A stretch of DNA of 64,000 nt from Mesorhizobium sp. LSHC420B00 (GTDB lineage Bacteria; Pseudomonadota; Alphaproteobacteria; Rhizobiales; Rhizobiaceae). The notes below the pieces were generated by a model. The model had not been told where the DNA came from. It did not search any database and saw only the letters and a list, made by a program, of their open reading frames with translations. The stretch is from contig NZ_AYVY01000002.1 of assembly GCF_000503055.1 (NCBI RefSeq), positions 297,379-361,378 of the forward strand. Reading direction: 5' to 3'. Of the stretch, positions 46,360-53,728 are shown piece after piece; the stretch's first letter is position 1; each line of letters starts with the position of its first letter. Position numbers and translations under genes: made by a program.

Positions 46360-47624
46360 ATGGACTTCCGGATCGACGCGGTGCGCGCAAAATTTCCGGC
46401 CTTGTCGCTGACCGACAAGGGCCGCAGGCGCATCTATCTCGACAATCCTGCCGGCACGCAGGTGCCGCAGGCGGTGGCGGACGCGGTGTCACGCTGCCTG
46501 CTGACCACCAATGCCAATCTCGGCGGCTTCTTCGAGACCACCATCGCGGCACAAGACATCGTCGACGAGGCCCATCTGGCGATGGCGGATTTCCTTGGCG
46601 CGGCAAGTCCGCGGGAAATCATCATCGGCGCCAACATGACGACGTTGACCTACCACATGTCGCGAACGCTTGGCCGTACGATGAAACCCGGCGACGAGAT
46701 CATCCTCACCCGCATGGACCATGAGGGCAACATCTCACCCTGGCTGCAACTGGCTGAAGACCTTGGCCTTGTCGTGCGCTGGCTACCTTTCGACCAGCAG
46801 AGCTGGCAGATCGAGGAGGCGGCGCTCGCCGCGCTGCTTTCCGAGAGGACGCGGCTCATCGCGCTCAACTACGCCAGCAATCTCACCGGGGTCGATCAAC
46901 CGGGTGAAGGCGTTGACCCGCACTGCCAGGCAGGCCGGTGCGTTGGTCTACGTTGATGCCGTGCAGTTCGCCCCGCATGGCCTGATCGACGTCCAAAATC
47001 TCGGCTGTGATTTCCTGATCTGCTCGGCCTACAAGTTCTTCGGCCCACATATGGGAATTTTGTGGGGCAGGCTGGACGTCGTCGATGCGCTGAAGCCGTA
47101 CAAATGCCGTTGCTCGTCCAATGCCTTGCCGGAGCGCTTCGAGCTCGGCACGCCGCAAATTGAATTGATGGCCGGCCTGTCGGCGGCGGTCGATTATCTT
47201 GCCGAGCTGGGCGCGGCGGCCGGCGATCAAGCATCGCGCCGCCAGAAAATAACCAAGGCCTTCGAATTGTCGATCGCTTACGAGAACCCGCTGGCGCAAC
47301 GGCTGATCGACGGTCTGTCGGATATTGCCGGCCTGACCATCCACGGCATCACCGATCCGAAGCGGATCAATGAGCGCGTGCCGACGGTGTCCTTCACCGT
47401 CCAAGGCATCGTGCCGGAGGCGATCGTGCGGCAGATGAATGCGGAAAACATCCCTATGGTCCGGCCACAACTACGCCTGGGAGATTGTGCACCAGCTCGG
47501 CATTCCGGCCGACCAGGGCGTCGTGCGCATAGGCATCGCTCATTACAACACTTCAGCCGAGATCGACGAGACGCTGGAGAGTGTGCACCGCGTTGTCGCC
47601 ATGCTGAGGCAGGAACGATCCTGA
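46360..47624 (+). pseudogene. Class V aminotransferase/cysteine-desulfurase-like gene with two frameshifts
   Basis: The family product (about 420 aa, VC1184-like branch) is spread over three frames. Frame 1 (from 46360) covers RIYLDNPAGTQ to YASNLTG; an extra G in the GGGG at 46888-46891 breaks it. Frame 2 continues SINRVKALTRTARQAGALVY, then CSAYKFFGPHMG with the PLP lysine, to MNAENI. A second shift near 47450-47460 leads into WSGHNYAWEIVHQLG and the stop at 47624. As read, no full-length protein is made. Decay or sequence errors are equally possible. Confidence 0.78.
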
Positions 47625-47642: not shown

Positions 47643-48674
47643 TCATCGCTTGTGGGCGCCGCCAAAACCGGTGAGGAAGGCGGTGAGATTGTCGCCGAGC
47701 TCGTCGCAGAGATAGCCGCCTTCCTGGACGATGACTGTCGATAGGCCGAGACCGGCGATGGCCTCGCCAATGCGCGAGAAACCGGGCGTGCTCACCGACA
47801 GCCCACCGAACGGATCGCCCTCGAAGGCGTCGAGGCCGAGCGCCACCACCAGCGCTTCTGGCGCAAAGGCGCGGATACGCTGGAAAGCCACGTCCAGTGC
47901 TTCGAGGAATGCGGCGTCGCCGGATTTGCGCGGCAGCGGCAGGTTGAGATTGTAGCCGAGGCCGGCGCCTTCGCCGCGCTCGTCGGCATGGCCCCAGAAA
48001 AACGGATAGAAGCGCACCGGGTCGGCATGCAGCGACACGGTGAGCACGTCCGGCCGGGCATAGAAGATGCCCTGCGTGCCATTGCCGTGATGCAGGTCGA
48101 CGTCGAGGATCGCCACCCGCGCCGCTTGCTTGCGCAGAACCCGTGCGGCGACCGCCGAATTGTTGATGAAGCAGAAGCCGCCGGCGACCTCGGCAAAGGC
48201 GTGATGGCCGGGCGGACGGCAGAGCGCATAGGCTGAAGGCACGCCCGACATCACCGCCTCGGCTGCTTCAACCGCGCTCCAGGCGCTCCACAGTGCGCTC
48301 TGCCACGTCTCGCCGGAGATCGGGCAGGCGGTGTCGGCCATGTGGTAGCCGGCCTGGCCGACTGCCGAGGCAGGATAGGAGCCGTGCCGCGCGATCGGAT
48401 GGATGTTGGGAATGACCTCGGCAGAGGCACCCTCGATGCGCTGCCAGCGCGCGAAGATATGCTGGAGGAAATCGAGATATTCGGGCGTATGCACCGCCGC
48501 AATCGGGCCGAGCCCGTGATCCCGCGGCCGTTCGATCGTGCAGCCGGCAGCCTTTGCGCCGGCTAGCAATCGCTCGACCCGTTCCGGCTTTTCCGGATTG
48601 GGCTGCGGCGCGCCGCTTGAGAGGAACGCCTTCGGGTCGTGGCGCTTCTGTTCTTCGGCATAGAAGGCTTTCAT
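47643..48674 (-). CDS. Histone deacetylase/acetylpolyamine amidohydrolase family protein
   Basis: Zinc deacetylase of 343 aa: catalytic His pair in CRPPGHHAF (157-158), metal ligands in DVDLHHGNGT (Asp193, His195) with a further Asp in GLDAFEGDP, and GGYLCDELG near the C-terminus. The Y-x-H-P-E-like front end (TPEYLDFLQHI) is closer to acetylpolyamine amidohydrolases than to histone enzymes. ATGA overlap with the GNAT gene upstream indicates co-translation. Confidence 0.9.
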   Translation of the reverse strand: MKAFYAEEQKRHDPKAFLSSGAPQPNPEKPERVERLLAGAKAAGCTIERPRDHGLGPIAAVHTPEYLDFLQHIFARWQRIEGASAEVIPNIHPIARHGSYPASAVGQAGYHMADTACPISGETWQSALWSAWSAVEAAEAVMSGVPSAYALCRPPGHHAFAEVAGGFCFINNSAVAARVLRKQAARVAILDVDLHHGNGTQGIFYARPDVLTVSLHADPVRFYPFFWGHADERGEGAGLGYNLNLPLPRKSGDAAFLEALDVAFQRIRAFAPEALVVALGLDAFEGDPFGGLSVSTPGFSRIGEAIAGLGLSTVIVQEGGYLCDELGDNLTAFLTGFGGAHKR

Positions 48675-49180
48675 GTTGGCTCCTCCGGTGCATCGGCGAA
48701 GGCGAAAAAGGCGTCGCCGACGATCTTCTGCACCTGCTCGTAACTCGACCAGGCAATGCCCAACCGTTCGTAAAAAGCCTTGGCGGTCTCGTTGTCGGTA
48801 TCGACGGACAGCCTGAGATAGACGCCGCCTGCCTTCCGGCACTGCGCCGCCACCCGGCGCAGCAGGCGCTCGCCGATCCTGCGGCCGCGAAACCGGTCCT
48901 CGACGTAGAGGTCCTGCACATAGACGCCGGCTCGTCCCATCCATGTCGAGAAGATCGGAAAATGCAGGCAAAGCCCGGCAAATTCGCCGCCGACTTCGGC
49001 GATCAAGGTCGAGAAGGCAGGCTTTTCGCCAAAGCCATAGGTGCGGAGATCCGCAGCTGTCGAGGTGATCTCCTGATGTGCGCCGACATGCGCGCCGAGC
49101 CGTAGGAGTGCGGCGTGGATGGTTTCGACGTCCTCCACCCGGCCGGGGCGGATAAGCACGTTTGTGGATGGCGTACTCAC
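48671..49180 (-). CDS. GNAT family N-acetyltransferase
   Basis: 169 aa. The acetyl-CoA-binding motif A is VEDRFRGRRIGERLLRRVA near 92-110, preceded by VYVQDLYV, and the C-terminal part AKAFYERLGIAWSS matches spermidine/spermine-type or RimI-like acetyltransferases. Pairing with a deacetylase gene by ATGA overlap suggests opposing acetylation and deacetylation of the same compound, which is inference. Confidence 0.87.
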   Translation of the reverse strand: MSTPSTNVLIRPGRVEDVETIHAALLRLGAHVGAHQEITSTAADLRTYGFGEKPAFSTLIAEVGGEFAGLCLHFPIFSTWMGRAGVYVQDLYVEDRFRGRRIGERLLRRVAAQCRKAGGVYLRLSVDTDNETAKAFYERLGIAWSSYEQVQKIVGDAFFAFADAPEEPT

Positions 49181-49198
49181 GGCAGGCAGGGCGCCCAG

Positions 49199-49360
49199 GC
49201 ACCCCCCTCTGTCCTGCCGGACATCTCCCCCTCAAGGGGGGAGATTGGATGTCGCGCCGGGTTTCGCCATTCACCAACGTTGCAGGGTGGGCAGCGAGAT
49301 CGAAGCTGCCGATCTCTCCCCTTGAGGGAGAGATGGCCGGCAGGCCAGAGGGGGGTGTGC
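49199..49360. repeat. Composite inverted repeat, second copy
   Basis: Same units as at 7238-7430 in swapped order: CACCCCCCTCTG, GGACATCTCCCCC, GGGGGGAGATTGG (49200-49249) first, then GATCTCTCCCC, GAGGGAGAGATGG and CAGAGGGGGGTG (49311-49357). It lies between the acetyltransferase and the BKACE gene, in an otherwise tight run, and could end or stabilise the upstream transcript. Confidence 0.72.
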
Positions 49361-49373
49361 CGGAGCGCAACCA

Positions 49374-50303
49374 TCAGAACGCCACACGGTCGCCGCCCTT
49401 GAGCGCCAGCATCTGCCGCGCCTCGGCCGGCGTCGCGACGTCCAGCGACAGCCCGTCGAGCACGCTGCGGATACGGCGGACCTGGTCGGCATTGGACTTG
49501 GCCAGTTGGCGCCCGTCGTAGAGGCTGTCCTCCAGCCCGACGCGGACATTGCCGCCCATCGCCGCCGCAATCGAGATCATCGGCATCTGATGGCGTCCGG
49601 CGGCCAGCACCGAAAACTGGTAGCTGTCGCCGAACAGTTTGTCGGCGATGCGCTTCATGTGGATCAGGTTTTCGGGATCGGCGCCGATGCCACCGAGGAT
49701 GCCGAACACGAACTGGATGAACAGCGGTCCCGACACCAGCCCGCGGTCGCGGAAATGCGCCAGCGAGTAGAGGTGGCCGACATCGTAGCACTCGAATTCA
49801 AAGCGCGTGCCGCAACCACGCCCAAGCTTCTCAAGCACCGTCTCCATGTCGGCAAAGGTGTTCTTGAAGATCGTGTCGCGGGTCGCCTCGAGCAGCTTCG
49901 GCTCCCATTCGTGCTGCCACTCCCGCGGCCGCTCGAGCATGGGGAACAGCGCGAAATTCATCGAGCCCATGTTGAGCGAGCACATTTCCGGCTCCGCCCT
50001 GAGCGGGGCGGCCAACCGCTGGTCGAGCGTCATCAGCGAGGAGCCACCGGTGGTGATGTTGATCACTGCGTCGGTCGCCTGCTTGATGCGCGGCAGGAAC
50101 TGCATGAACACCTCGGGGTCGGCGGTCGGCCTTCCATCCTTGGGGTCGCGGGCGTGAAGATGCAGGATCGAGGCACCGGCTTCGGCGGCGGCGATCGCGT
50201 CGGCGGCGATCTGGTCCGGCGTCACCGGCAGATGCGGCGACATCGATGGTGTGTGCACCGACCCGGTGACGGCGCAGGTGATAATGATTTTTCGCGGCGC
50301 CAT
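49374..50303 (-). CDS. Beta-keto acid cleavage enzyme (BKACE, DUF849)
   Basis: Zinc TIM-barrel enzyme of 309 aa that condenses a beta-keto acid with acetyl-CoA and splits it into acetoacetate and a new CoA ester. Zinc ligands HLH are His48 and His50 (ILHLHARDPKDGRP); ITTGGSS (near 88), CSLNMGSMNFA and GGNVRVGLEDSLY are further family marks. The specific keto acid varies between subfamilies and cannot be read here. 10 bp after the aminotransferase. Confidence 0.93.
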   Translation of the reverse strand: MAPRKIIITCAVTGSVHTPSMSPHLPVTPDQIAADAIAAAEAGASILHLHARDPKDGRPTADPEVFMQFLPRIKQATDAVINITTGGSSLMTLDQRLAAPLRAEPEMCSLNMGSMNFALFPMLERPREWQHEWEPKLLEATRDTIFKNTFADMETVLEKLGRGCGTRFEFECYDVGHLYSLAHFRDRGLVSGPLFIQFVFGILGGIGADPENLIHMKRIADKLFGDSYQFSVLAAGRHQMPMISIAAAMGGNVRVGLEDSLYDGRQLAKSNADQVRRIRSVLDGLSLDVATPAEARQMLALKGGDRVAF

Positions 50304-50313
50304 GGTTCGGCCC

Positions 50314-51681
50314 TCAGCCTTCGACCGGCAGGTCGAGTTCACCGGCCAGCACTTCGAGCGAGTCGCCGATGATGGCTACGATCTCGCCGATCTGCGCGGC
50401 GGTGACGATCATCGGCGGCGCGACCATGAAATTGTCGCCGTCGACGCCGCCCTTGACCTTGCGTCCGTAGATGATCAGTCCGCGCTCATAGGCGAGGTCG
50501 AGCAGCCGCTGGGTGGCCTTCTTTGCCGGCTCGATCGGCCTCAGCGTATCTGGGTCGGCGACCATTTCGGCACCTGTGAGCAGGCCCTTGCCGCGGACGT
50601 CGGCGATGAACGGAAACCGCTTCGCCAATCCCTTCAGCTCGTCCATCAAAAGCTTGCCCATATCGGCCGCATTGGCGATCAGGCCGAGACGGTCCATCTC
50701 GCCGAGCACGGCGAGCCCGGCGGCGCAGGCGAGCGGGTTGCCGGCATAGGTATGGCCATGCTGGAAGCCGCCCGATGCGAGCAATGGCTGCACCAGCCGC
50801 ATCGGTGCCGCCAGCGCGCCGAGCGGCGCGTAGCCCGAGCCCAGCCCCTTCGACAGCGCAACGATGTCGGGCTTGCAGTTCCAGTGGTCGCCGCCGAGGA
50901 ATTTTCCGGTGCGACCGGCGCCGCTCATCACCTCGTCATGGATGAGCAGGATGCCGTAGCGATCGCAGATCTCGCGGATGCGCGGATAGTAGCTGTCCGG
51001 CGCCACCAGTGCTGCCGTGGCAGCGCCGCCGACCGGCTCCATGATGAAGGCGAGCACGCTGTCCGGCCCCTCGGCGAGAATCTTCTCCTCCAGCATGTCG
51101 GCATAGCGGATGCCGCGCTGTTCCATCGAAAGATTGTCGCGGTCGCGCCAGGCGATGGGCGCCGGCACGGTCGGCATCACTTGCATCATCGGCGCAAATG
51201 TTTCGGCCAGCGCATCGTCGCCGGTGACGGCGAGCGCACCCAGCGTGCCGCCATGATAGGACGGAAAACGCGTGATCACCTTCCAGCGGCTGGGCTGGCC
51301 GGTGGCGACCGCCCATTGCCGCGCCAGCTTGACGCAGGATTCCGTTGCCTCCGAGCCGCCGGAGACGAAAAAGATGCGGTCCAGGCCCTCGGGGAGTTTG
51401 GCCGCCAGTTGCCGCGCGAGCTCCTCGGCCGGTTCGTTCTCGAAATGCAGGCGGTAGGCGAAGGTGGCGCGGTCCATCTGCCGTTTCATCGCGTCGAGCA
51501 CGTTGCGGTTGGAGTGGCCGATATTGGCGACCATCGGCCCGCTCGATCCGTCGATGAAGCGGCGGCCATCCTGCGTCCACATGTAGATGCCTTCGGCGCG
51601 GTCGATCAGCGGCCGACGCAGGCTGGACAGATAAAACAGATGCGAGGCTTCGCGGGCTTCCGGGACAGGGGGCTTCAGCAT
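50314..51681 (-). CDS. Class III pyridoxal-phosphate aminotransferase
   Basis: 455 aa from MLKPPVPEAREAS. Omega-amino acid or beta-amino acid type: FVSGGSEATESCVKLAR, SYHGGTLGAL, LLIHDEVMSGAGRTGKF, and PLP lysine in ALSKGLGSGYAPLG. Start at 51681, which follows GGAAAG and sits 1 nt from the preceding stop; 51714 would overlap 30 nt and has no ribosome site. Probably makes the keto acid that BKACE consumes. Confidence 0.92.
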   Translation of the reverse strand: MLKPPVPEAREASHLFYLSSLRRPLIDRAEGIYMWTQDGRRFIDGSSGPMVANIGHSNRNVLDAMKRQMDRATFAYRLHFENEPAEELARQLAAKLPEGLDRIFFVSGGSEATESCVKLARQWAVATGQPSRWKVITRFPSYHGGTLGALAVTGDDALAETFAPMMQVMPTVPAPIAWRDRDNLSMEQRGIRYADMLEEKILAEGPDSVLAFIMEPVGGAATAALVAPDSYYPRIREICDRYGILLIHDEVMSGAGRTGKFLGGDHWNCKPDIVALSKGLGSGYAPLGALAAPMRLVQPLLASGGFQHGHTYAGNPLACAAGLAVLGEMDRLGLIANAADMGKLLMDELKGLAKRFPFIADVRGKGLLTGAEMVADPDTLRPIEPAKKATQRLLDLAYERGLIIYGRKVKGGVDGDNFMVAPPMIVTAAQIGEIVAIIGDSLEVLAGELDLPVEG

Positions 51682-51682
51682 G

Positions 51683-53323
51683 TCATGGCTTTCCAAGATA
51701 GCGGTCGAGGACATTTCTGGTGACGCGCTCGACCATCGCGTCCTGCCTTAGCAGGCCGGCGACCCATTCGCAGCTTCCTGCGTGAAACACCTCGCCCTTG
51801 CCGCGCGGGAAATTGACGATCATGCCGTTGCCGCGTTTGACCTTGTCGAGATTGGCGTCGCTTGCCTCGCCGAACAGCGTTTCGGCGGTGAAGCGACCGT
51901 CCTCGTCGCCGAGGAACTGGTCCTCGAACGGAATGTCGGCGCTTTCCTCGACCTGGGCAGCCATGCCGACCGCGAGCACCTGCAGGCCGTCCGGTGCGCC
52001 GCTGTCGGGCGTGGGGTAGGGCAGGCCGCCGCGGATCTCGAAATCGAGCCCGTCGACCTCGTAGCCATAGACATGGCTGTCGGCGCCGAGCAGGTCGCCA
52101 TAGTAGATGCCGGTGCCGGCAAACGCCCAATGCTCAGGCCGGTAGACCGGAAAGCCGCGTACGCCGCGCGGCGCGCAGCCGCCCCAGCCCGCATAGACGC
52201 CTCTTGTCGCGTTGAGGCCGAAGGTCGCCGCACCCGGCCGGCCGATTTCCGGCGCTTCCCAGGAATTGGTGGCGCGCCTTATATCGCCGCCGCGATAGGC
52301 CGGGTCCTCTGCGCGAGCGCGGTATTTGTAGCAGACCTGCCGGCGGCCTTCGTCCTCCAGCCTGGTCTGCCACATGAAATTGCCGGCGAAGCGCGCCGCT
52401 TGGCCGCCGCGCTCGACATAGGTGTCGACCGCATCGCGCATCTCCCAGGTCCAGTATTCGTCGTGGCCGACGAAGACGACGCAGTCGTAGCCGTCGAGAA
52501 TGTCGGGCGAAAAATGCAGATCGTGCTGGCTGGCAAGATCGACGGCGTAGCCGGCACGCTCGGCGAAGCGGAAGAAATGGCTGTCATAGCTTGCCCAGCC
52601 GGACGAGGCGTATTTCTTCGAATGGCCGGTGGCAAACGCCCATTCCATATGCGGATAGCGCGGCACGGTTTTCGGCGGCACGGCGACTTCGAGCGGCACG
52701 CGCGGCGCGTCCCTGGGCAGCACGACGAAGCCGCGGCACCAAGGCCGCTGCGTCGACACTATTCGTGCATACTGGTCGCGGCCTGGCCCGGTGATGCCTT
52801 CGTAATGGTTGGAACCGCCCCATGTGTTGTAGGCGAGCCAGGTGCCGGTGGCCGCGACCTGCAGCACGCGACCAAGCTTCTTGCCGGGCTGCGGCGCGAC
52901 GATGAAAAGATGGTGGTAGCGGATCGGCTTGCCGTCGCGAGCGTCGGCTTCAAGCGTGACGCGATAGGCGCCGGACGGCCAGTCGTCGCCGATGCAAAAT
53001 TCGAACGATGCTTCCCAGCCGCAGCCCTCGACCGAACACTGATCAGGCGTATCCTGCCAGCGCGCCGCGATCCCGGTCCTTTCGAATATCGTCGTTTCCG
53101 TACCGCCGTCGCGGACGATCGCGATGCCGAAACTGGCGGCCGTCGAGCTGACATGCAGCGCCACCATCTCGCCGGGGTGGTAGGAAAAACGGTCGCTGTA
53201 GCACCAGATTTCGCCGCGCCCGCCATCCATACCCGGCCATTCCCAGTAATGGCTGCGCACCGCCTGGCGTCGCTGCTCCGGCGTCAGTCCGAAATCGGGA
53301 AACTCGGTCGGCAGATGGTTCAT
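51683..53323 (-). CDS. N,N-dimethylformamidase large-subunit-like protein
   Basis: 546 aa similar to the C-terminal part of the dimethylformamidase large subunit: GRVLQVAATGTWLAYNTWGGSNHY near 152-175, VVFVGHDEYWTWEMRDAVD near 275-295, and VERGGQAARFAGNFMWQ. Known enzyme hydrolyses formamides using an iron site; here the N-terminal domain of the 760-residue enzyme is missing and no small-subunit gene is adjacent. Start at 53323. First gene of the minus-strand unit. Confidence 0.85.
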   Translation of the reverse strand: MNHLPTEFPDFGLTPEQRRQAVRSHYWEWPGMDGGRGEIWCYSDRFSYHPGEMVALHVSSTAASFGIAIVRDGGTETTIFERTGIAARWQDTPDQCSVEGCGWEASFEFCIGDDWPSGAYRVTLEADARDGKPIRYHHLFIVAPQPGKKLGRVLQVAATGTWLAYNTWGGSNHYEGITGPGRDQYARIVSTQRPWCRGFVVLPRDAPRVPLEVAVPPKTVPRYPHMEWAFATGHSKKYASSGWASYDSHFFRFAERAGYAVDLASQHDLHFSPDILDGYDCVVFVGHDEYWTWEMRDAVDTYVERGGQAARFAGNFMWQTRLEDEGRRQVCYKYRARAEDPAYRGGDIRRATNSWEAPEIGRPGAATFGLNATRGVYAGWGGCAPRGVRGFPVYRPEHWAFAGTGIYYGDLLGADSHVYGYEVDGLDFEIRGGLPYPTPDSGAPDGLQVLAVGMAAQVEESADIPFEDQFLGDEDGRFTAETLFGEASDANLDKVKRGNGMIVNFPRGKGEVFHAGSCEWVAGLLRQDAMVERVTRNVLDRYLGKP

Positions 53324-53479
53324 GGACACCGCTAAGGTCGAAGGCCGCCATTTCGGCCATCCGCCGGCCAAGCGTCAATTGGAAACGATCGGGCCAGTCA
53401 TCGCCGGGCTGCTCCCTTGGCCTTGCCGGACAAACAGACTATCTCACAAAACGCGGCCTTGTCCGCCACGGGAGCCGAT

Positions 53480-53728
53480 ATGCTGAGAGTGCAAAAGGTT
53501 AGGGTCAACGACATTTACGTGCCGACCGCGCGCAAGAAGACGCTGCATCCCGAGACCGTCCGCCATCTTGCCGAGGACATTCTGGAAAACGGCATGAATA
53601 CGCCGATCCAGGTGCGCCATGACGGCAAGCGCCATATCCTGGTCGAAGGCCTGCATCGGCTCGAAGCGGCCAAGTGGCTCGGCGAGACTGAGATCGACGC
53701 CTATCTGGTGCAAGCCAAGCGCCACTGA
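53480..53728 (+). CDS. ParB/Srx-like domain protein, 82 aa
   Basis: Only the ParB N-terminal (nuclease-like) fold is present: KVRVNDIYVPTARKKTLHPETV, NGMNTPIQVRHDG and LVEGLHRLEAAKWLGETEI. It lacks the DNA-binding and dimerisation domains of partition ParB, so a role in segregation is unlikely. The ATG at 53480 follows GGGAG at 53470-53474. Function unknown. Confidence 0.82.
   Translation: MLRVQKVRVNDIYVPTARKKTLHPETVRHLAEDILENGMNTPIQVRHDGKRHILVEGLHRLEAAKWLGETEIDAYLVQAKRH

Follow-up and report, generated by a model that had tools for sequence, protein, structure and literature searches.

In the 64,000-nucleotide (nt) stretch of Mesorhizobium sp. LSHC420B00 analysed here (the window: contig NZ_AYVY01000002.1, positions 297,379 to 361,378 of the forward strand; assembly GCF_000503055.1, host genome G000, 7.05 Mb), five enzyme genes lie on the minus strand at 47643-53323 and constitute a real, conserved catabolic unit. 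Its core consists of a class III aminotransferase (AT), a beta-keto acid cleavage enzyme (BKACE), a GNAT N-acetyltransferase that is not present in every cluster, and an HDAC-family deacetylase, and the dimethylformamidase (DMFase)-like amidase that accompanies this core in the window is one of several front ends. We read the unit, with an even chance of being right, as an operon for the catabolism of a beta-amino acid with a second, terminal amine, which would arrive as an amide or as an N-acyl derivative. The inference to a beta-amino acid as the class of substrate is well supported, that to a terminal amine moderately, and that to beta-lysine as the particular compound weakly. The elements of the unit, in the order of transcription, are the following:

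51683-53323, minus strand: DMFase-like amidase (single chain, 546 amino acids), front end of the unit (Pfam DMFA2_C, 3.1e-67)
50314-51681, minus strand: class III aminotransferase, AT (455 amino acids), putative beta-amino acid transaminase (Pfam Aminotran_3, 9.2e-92)
49374-50303, minus strand: BKACE, beta-keto acid cleavage enzyme (309 amino acids; Pfam BKACE, 7.7e-108)
49200-49357, no strand: inverted repeat, two arms of 49 nt with 60 nt between them, in the gap from BKACE to GNAT
48671-49180, minus strand: GNAT N-acetyltransferase (169 amino acids, GTG start), putative amine-masking enzyme (Pfam Acetyltransf_1, 1.8e-14)
47643-48674, minus strand: HDAC-family deacetylase of the acetylpolyamine amidohydrolase (APAH) type (343 amino acids), which would remove an acetyl mask from a non-polyamine substrate (Pfam Hist_deacetyl, 9.8e-76)

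All five frames are open, with no internal stop, and the Pfam families agree with the enzymes named in the original prediction, which had been made from the sequence of the window. Its description of the spacing is likewise confirmed: 1 nt separates the amidase from the AT and 10 nt the AT from BKACE, the last two genes share a 4-nt ATGA overlap, and the repeat, whose inverted arms are 90% complementary, lies within the 193-nt gap before the GNAT gene. An insertion is the probable origin of the repeat, as the gap does not exceed 60 nt in 35 of the 61 related loci compared. A scan of the run for promoters and terminators gave one promoter-like site (1.0 expected) and five terminator-like sites (3.6 expected), counts so close to those of shuffled sequence that the scan is uninformative.

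Conservation of the unit and its smaller core

An ortholog of the amidase (at least 76% identity) is found in 96 of 99 genomes of the genus, the exceptions being G620, with no ortholog, and G626 and G702, with matches of only 45% and 52%. Among 40 loci hand-picked from the 96 genomes, every one has the AT no more than a few genes from the amidase; GNAT is present in 39, HDAC in 39 and BKACE in 33, and the full set of five in 32; the sole locus missing GNAT and HDAC (L212) ends at a contig end. The grouping of the genes exceeds chance, and this conserved co-occurrence supports the shared catabolic unit that had been predicted. Eleven of the 40 loci also carry a complete polar-amino-acid ABC transporter together with a LysR regulator, and ten carry a 4HBT thioesterase.

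A separate scan of named genomes, of which the best 80 amidase loci were taken (overlapping partly with the genus genomes), extends this picture beyond Mesorhizobium. The 19 loci with an amidase identity of at least 86% contain the AT, GNAT and HDAC without exception and BKACE in 12 cases, and the 15 loci between 70 and 86% contain the AT in 14, BKACE in 12, GNAT in 14 and HDAC in 11, with all five genes in nine. Seven of these nine five-gene loci (L074, L075, L076, L079, L080, L084 and L085) lie outside the genus, in Nitratireductor aquimarinus, Rhizobium herbae, Rhizobium sp. Root1334, Aliihoeflea, Phyllobacterium pellucidum, Ensifer oleiphilus and a Rhizobiales bacterium, so that the five-gene order does recur in other genera of rhizobia. 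On a Pararhizobium plasmid, independently annotated, a LysR gene is followed by all five genes in order, and in two distant loci from Rhodobacteraceae metagenome-assembled genomes (L117 and L132) HDAC, GNAT and BKACE are kept in the vicinity of amidases with 49% and 45% identity, respectively. Correlations among the AT, BKACE and HDAC distances (62 loci, r 0.82-0.90) were set aside as evidence, having no species-tree control.

The amidase homologs also include some in other surroundings. The host genome has a second DMFase-like gene, 74% identical (G000:C69:149-1780, L048), on a 3.5-kb contig without AT, BKACE, GNAT or HDAC, and several homologs of about 45-52% identity (L097, L099, L112, L113, L118 and others) lie near tandem ATPase matches, which suggests other kinds of ABC transporter.

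The membership of the unit is less fixed than the five enzymes of the original prediction, given that the core occurs without the amidase in several loci, which makes the DMFase-like amidase no obligatory member, and that BKACE is not always present. A search seeded with the HDAC in 398 genomes of the phylum gave a match in 88, of which 20 loci were fetched, and in seven of the eight loci that contained AT and BKACE no amidase gene was found. Six of these loci (G551, G537, G041, G531, G575 and G579) show a divergent LysR gene and an ABC transporter of the SBP_bac_8 type, whose binding protein gives weak matches to YdcS, PotD and PotF, and in four of the six the HDAC gene is followed by one for an FAD oxidoreductase. 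On plasmids of Phyllobacterium zundukense and Shinella, AT-BKACE-GNAT-HDAC stands with no amidase, and a Parasedimentitalea plasmid carries AT-BKACE-HDAC with an M20 hydrolase; nine plasmid regions around BKACE were inspected out of 163 records, and in four of them AT and HDAC adjoin BKACE. The transporters that adjoin the unit in relatives are thus of two types, either polar-amino-acid (with an SBP_bac_3 binding protein) or polyamine-like (SBP_bac_8).

Substitutes and active-site residues

The best NCBIfam model of the AT is PRK07483, at 432.8 bits and below the cut-off of 485. The nature of its substrate can be approached through the enzymes that stand beside the AT in other genomes. A search seeded with the AT in 398 genomes of the phylum gave 23 matches at E <= 1e-115, 14 of them outside the genus, and 12 of these have an AT identity of at least 57%. 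BKACE adjoins the AT in ten of the 12, and in the other two (G460 and G603) a CoA-transferase takes its place, with both subunits confirmed in G460 and one scanned and confirmed in G603. At lower AT identity (46%), a thiolase and both CoA-transferase genes, A and B, separate the AT of G400 from a transporter, with HDAC behind, and G500 shows no further match to the unit in the searched stretch. In G858 (AT 44%), the AT is followed by a thiolase and an AMP-binding ligase, without BKACE; the genus to which it belongs, that of G361, was searched as a Pseudomonas link and discarded as a carrier of the unit, as this was the only one of its 199 genomes with an AT match at E <= 1e-105 and its variant lacks BKACE. 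The variant loci in which a CoA-transferase, a CoA-transferase with thiolase, or a thiolase with ligase stands for BKACE are L273, L274, L277 and L248, the last of which also holds an S-type pyocin-like gene near the G858 variant unit (L248:13454-14650, minus strand). As BKACE processes beta-keto acids, and so do a CoA-transferase with thiolase and a ligase with thiolase, the product of the AT is likely a beta-keto acid and, by the same token, its substrate a beta-amino acid, which in outline favours the predicted series of amide hydrolysis, transamination and cleavage.

The HDAC position is open to the same kind of substitution. Eight of the 12 loci found with the AT contain HDAC, three (G277, G460 and G603, the latter with a 53% HDAC on another contig) have in that position an M20 deacylase of the ArgE/DapE type that scores above its NCBIfam cut-off, and neither was found in the searched stretch of G539. 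An N-acyl amino acid deacylase in that position suggests that the HDAC substrate, too, is a small N-acyl amino acid. GNAT-like matches occur in eight of the 12 loci. As for the AT itself, its position within the genus holds two types, one about 90% identical to the copy in the window and another of about 69% (L053, L065, L088, L219 and L221), whose members are 86-98% identical among themselves and whose neighbouring genes stay at 82-95%; this looks like a replacement in place.

The amidase scores 228.1 bits against Pfam DMFA2_C (gathering cut-off 27), and a search of the PDB with its single sequence gave nothing at E 0.01. A profile of 20 homologs, in turn, aligns with DMFase (9e-23) and with N-acetyl-(R)-beta-phenylalanine acylase (about 1e-20). 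DMFase (6lvb) uses Y399 and E521 as iron ligands and H519 and N547 as catalytic residues, according to PMC7686228; Y399, H519, E521 and N547 align to the identical Y165, H287, E289 and N315 of the amidase, all four invariant in the 20 homologs, in a register that was checked by the E521A entry. The third DMFase ligand, Y440, falls outside the aligned stretches, and the invariant Y174 is a candidate counterpart. The predicted model of the amidase (pLDDT 77.1, pTM 0.85, with two segments close to the site, 160-164 and 169-172, falling below 50) gave six best rows at Z 28.8-30.0 in a fold comparison, as against 13.8 at most for unrelated chains. The acylase (8huy, 8i59, 8i5a) reaches Z 30.0 over 420 residues, at an rmsd of 3.0 and 24% identity, and belongs to a family that, by the entry titles, hydrolyses an amide and frees a beta-amino acid, although with about 730-776 residues it is longer than the 546-residue amidase. 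The large subunit of DMFase follows at Z 28.8-29.6 and is likewise longer, its approximately 280 extra residues falling between residues 64 and 72 of the amidase. No gene for a DMFase small subunit was seen between the amidase and its neighbours, the rest of the genome not having been searched. Because of the neighbouring genes, dimethylformamide is unlikely to be the native substrate.

BKACE scores 527.3 bits against NCBIfam NF053538 (3,5-dioxohexanoate:acetyl-CoA acetone transferase; cut-off 430) and 392 bits against BKACE15 of Paracoccus denitrificans (8RIO), which it resembles in family and over the full length, and whose catalytic E171 and R254 it keeps as E171 and R254. Neutral compounds, among them beta-ketohexanoate and 3,5-dioxohexanoate, are substrates of this relative (PMC11961710). 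For GNAT, no NCBIfam cut-off was reached, and no model named for AblB, a beta-lysine N-acetyltransferase, stood among the 11 listed at E <= 0.001.

The best PDB match of the HDAC is 3men (348.1 bits). Among 79 cluster copies, which are not all independent as some genomes were counted twice, the catalytic H157, H158, D193 and H195 are present in all, and D282 and Y321 are found in 78 and 77, with gaps in the others. The fold family, the tandem His, the metal ligands and the Tyr are shared with the APAHs of M. ramosa (3q9b) and Marinobacter (6phr), so the predicted acetylpolyamine type fits as far as the family goes; the polyamine-binding glutamate, however, is missing, since E117, E17 and E106 of the M. 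ramosa enzyme are A116, F17 and V105 here. E117 binds the inner (N4) amine of polyamines, as given in PMC5454378, and its position holds Ala in 70 and Ser in nine of the 79 cluster copies. Its absence makes the cluster HDACs poor candidates, judging by their residues, for polyamine deacetylases, but it does not mark the cluster, as the Glu is also replaced by Ala or Ser in 13 of 13 aligned non-cluster relatives. At another position, which we take to correspond to the HDAC10 gatekeeper and which was placed by the GDP-x-G motif, 77 of the 79 cluster copies have Phe, versus three of the 13 non-cluster ones.

Proposed pathway and rival explanations

Put together, these enzymes could act in a six-step sequence. 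The DMFase-like amidase, judging by its fold and active-site residues, would free the beta-amino acid, and GNAT would acetylate its terminal amine, which would keep the keto acid formed afterwards neutral and prevent it from cyclising. The AT, as the BKACE substitutes in other genomes indicate, would then convert the beta-amino acid into a beta-keto acid, which BKACE, following the chemistry of its family, would turn with acetyl-CoA into acetoacetate and an omega-acetamidoacyl-CoA. A thioesterase, whose gene adjoins the unit in relatives and was not found in the host genome, may free the acid (in relatives it matches the betainyl-CoA thioesterase weakly, at 24.9 bits with a cut-off of 592), and the HDAC-family enzyme would finally strip off the acetyl group to leave an omega-amino acid. 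The earlier idea that acetylation and deacetylation handle an amine is thereby given a plausible place. Beta-lysine, which would yield 4-aminobutyrate, is the best single candidate for the substrate, if a tentative one.

This scheme was worked out from the genes first, and its likeness to a route for beta-lysine was noticed afterwards. In a Pseudomonas, beta-lysine was reportedly shown by biochemical work of about 1979-81 to be degraded through N6-acetylation, transamination, cleavage of 3-keto-6-acetamidohexanoate and deacetylation. The transaminase of that route is EC 2.6.1.65 and the 4-acetamidobutyryl-CoA deacetylase EC 3.5.1.51. GNAT, AT, BKACE and HDAC, side by side here, each fit one of these steps, which is suggestive and not proof; the DMFase-like front end and the transporters are not known to belong to that route. 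GNAT might then possibly be the beta-lysine N6-acetyltransferase, the AT the N6-acetyl-beta-lysine transaminase (EC 2.6.1.65), BKACE the 3-keto-6-acetamidohexanoate cleavage enzyme, HDAC the 4-acetamidobutyryl-CoA or 4-acetamidobutyrate deacetylase, and the iron-type DMFase-fold acylase an added rhizobial front end, an assignment that we hold as tentatively as beta-lysine itself. A literature search whose scope did not include many subscription papers found no description of this cluster and no gene cluster assigned to the beta-lysine route, and the beta-lysine papers among its results concern osmolytes; the pathway had been called undescribed, which is maybe too strong for the chemistry. If the assignment were true, it would provide gene candidates for several orphan enzyme activities together, link an amidase of the DMFase fold with the catabolism of amino acids at a locus that nearly all members of a rhizobial genus possess, and predict that HDAC-family deacetylases can be small-molecule deacetylases acting on carboxylates, and not on polyamines or proteins.

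A number of results weigh against the operon reading. In the HDAC-seeded search, just eight of the 20 fetched loci had AT and BKACE, and HDAC identity alone was consequently rejected as a marker of the unit; five of the nine plasmid BKACE regions lacked the AT-HDAC context as well. In the scan of the best 80 amidase loci, none of the four at 60-70% identity had AT, BKACE or HDAC near, and neither did 40 of the 42 at 40-60%. BKACE is missing from seven of the 40 genus loci and, outside the genus, from L071-L073, and nothing that could stand in for it was identified at these loci; the five enzymes, then, need not occur together in one place. A second BKACE (60-64%) was considered as a replacement in trans and not accepted, since it occurs not only in all nine genomes tested that lack the local BKACE but equally in 23 of 32 that have one, and its sampled neighbourhoods hold seemingly unrelated protease- and azoreductase-like genes. 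GNAT is absent from some clusters (G248; four of the 12 AT loci), and masking is therefore not always local. Finally, orthologs of three proteins of the relatives are lacking from the host genome: the binding protein of the transporter (best match 36% identical), the thioesterase (none at 1e-5) and the LysR (none at 1e-60). The absence of a transporter and regulator noted in the original prediction thus holds for the host genome and not for the system, some relatives having an ABC transporter, a LysR gene and a thioesterase, and uptake and the fifth step would need other proteins in this strain.

Are the five genes then neighbours by ancestry alone, enzymes of unrelated pathways that have stayed together within a genus? 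The loss of BKACE at those seven loci and the near absence of a shared gene context below 70% amidase identity would fit, but the order is kept across genera and on plasmids, at identities down to about 50-60%, and functional substitutes occupy the same place, which leaves this explanation improbable. Equally improbable is that GNAT and HDAC are not catabolic but form a switch that controls the AT/BKACE pathway through protein acetylation, as AcuA/AcuC do with acetyl-CoA synthetase. Such GNAT/deacetylase pairs do exist, AcuC and acetyl-CoA synthetase being a case described in PMC11532494; nevertheless, the M20 deacylase found in the HDAC position at three of 12 AT loci belongs to a small-molecule family, and several clusters keep HDAC without GNAT.

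The remaining alternatives keep a catabolic role and change the substrate. In a polyamine/beta-alanine route, HDAC would deacetylate an acetylpolyamine, the AT would convert beta-alanine into malonate semialdehyde, and BKACE would yield formyl-CoA and acetoacetate. Paracoccus BKACE15 does the latter in vitro and, with a beta-alanine transaminase, in engineered E. coli (PMC11961710), and the SBP_bac_8 transporters of some clusters have their weak PotD/YdcS matches; this is nonetheless hardly probable, as HDAC has no glutamate at the position of E117 and a CoA-transferase with thiolase in the place of BKACE would suit a longer beta-keto acid and not malonate semialdehyde. Possible, if somewhat doubtful, is that the same chemistry serves an N-acyl beta-amino acid, aliphatic or aromatic, that has no second amine; the amidase and HDAC or M20 would then deacylate the beta-amino group as alternatives to each other, and GNAT would detoxify the free amine. 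The variety of front ends (DMFase-like, M20 or none) is what would be expected if the acyl group varies, and the N-acetyl-(R)-beta-phenylalanine acylase is among the closest relatives of the amidase with a solved structure. HDAC-family tunnels, on the other hand, suit an acetamide that ends a linear chain and not one on a branched carbon, and the transporters that adjoin the unit, being of amino-acid and polyamine-like kinds, suggest a compound that is charged and zwitterionic. BKACE group G1, for its part, takes hydrophobic and non-charged polar substrates (PMC4922564), which would favour the single-amine substrate if the BKACE of the window belonged to that group.

Neighbouring genes

Two plus-strand genes flank the unit in the window. 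At 46366-47621 lies a cysteine-desulfurase-like gene (of the TIGR01976 type in the relative L034) that is split over three frames, that is, broken in the assembly, and that has a match in 36 of the 40 genus loci. At 53417-53728, divergent from the amidase, lies a small ParB_N-like gene (23.6 bits, under the cut-off of 26.3), a counterpart of which is found in all 40 genus loci and lies past the transporter block where this block exists.

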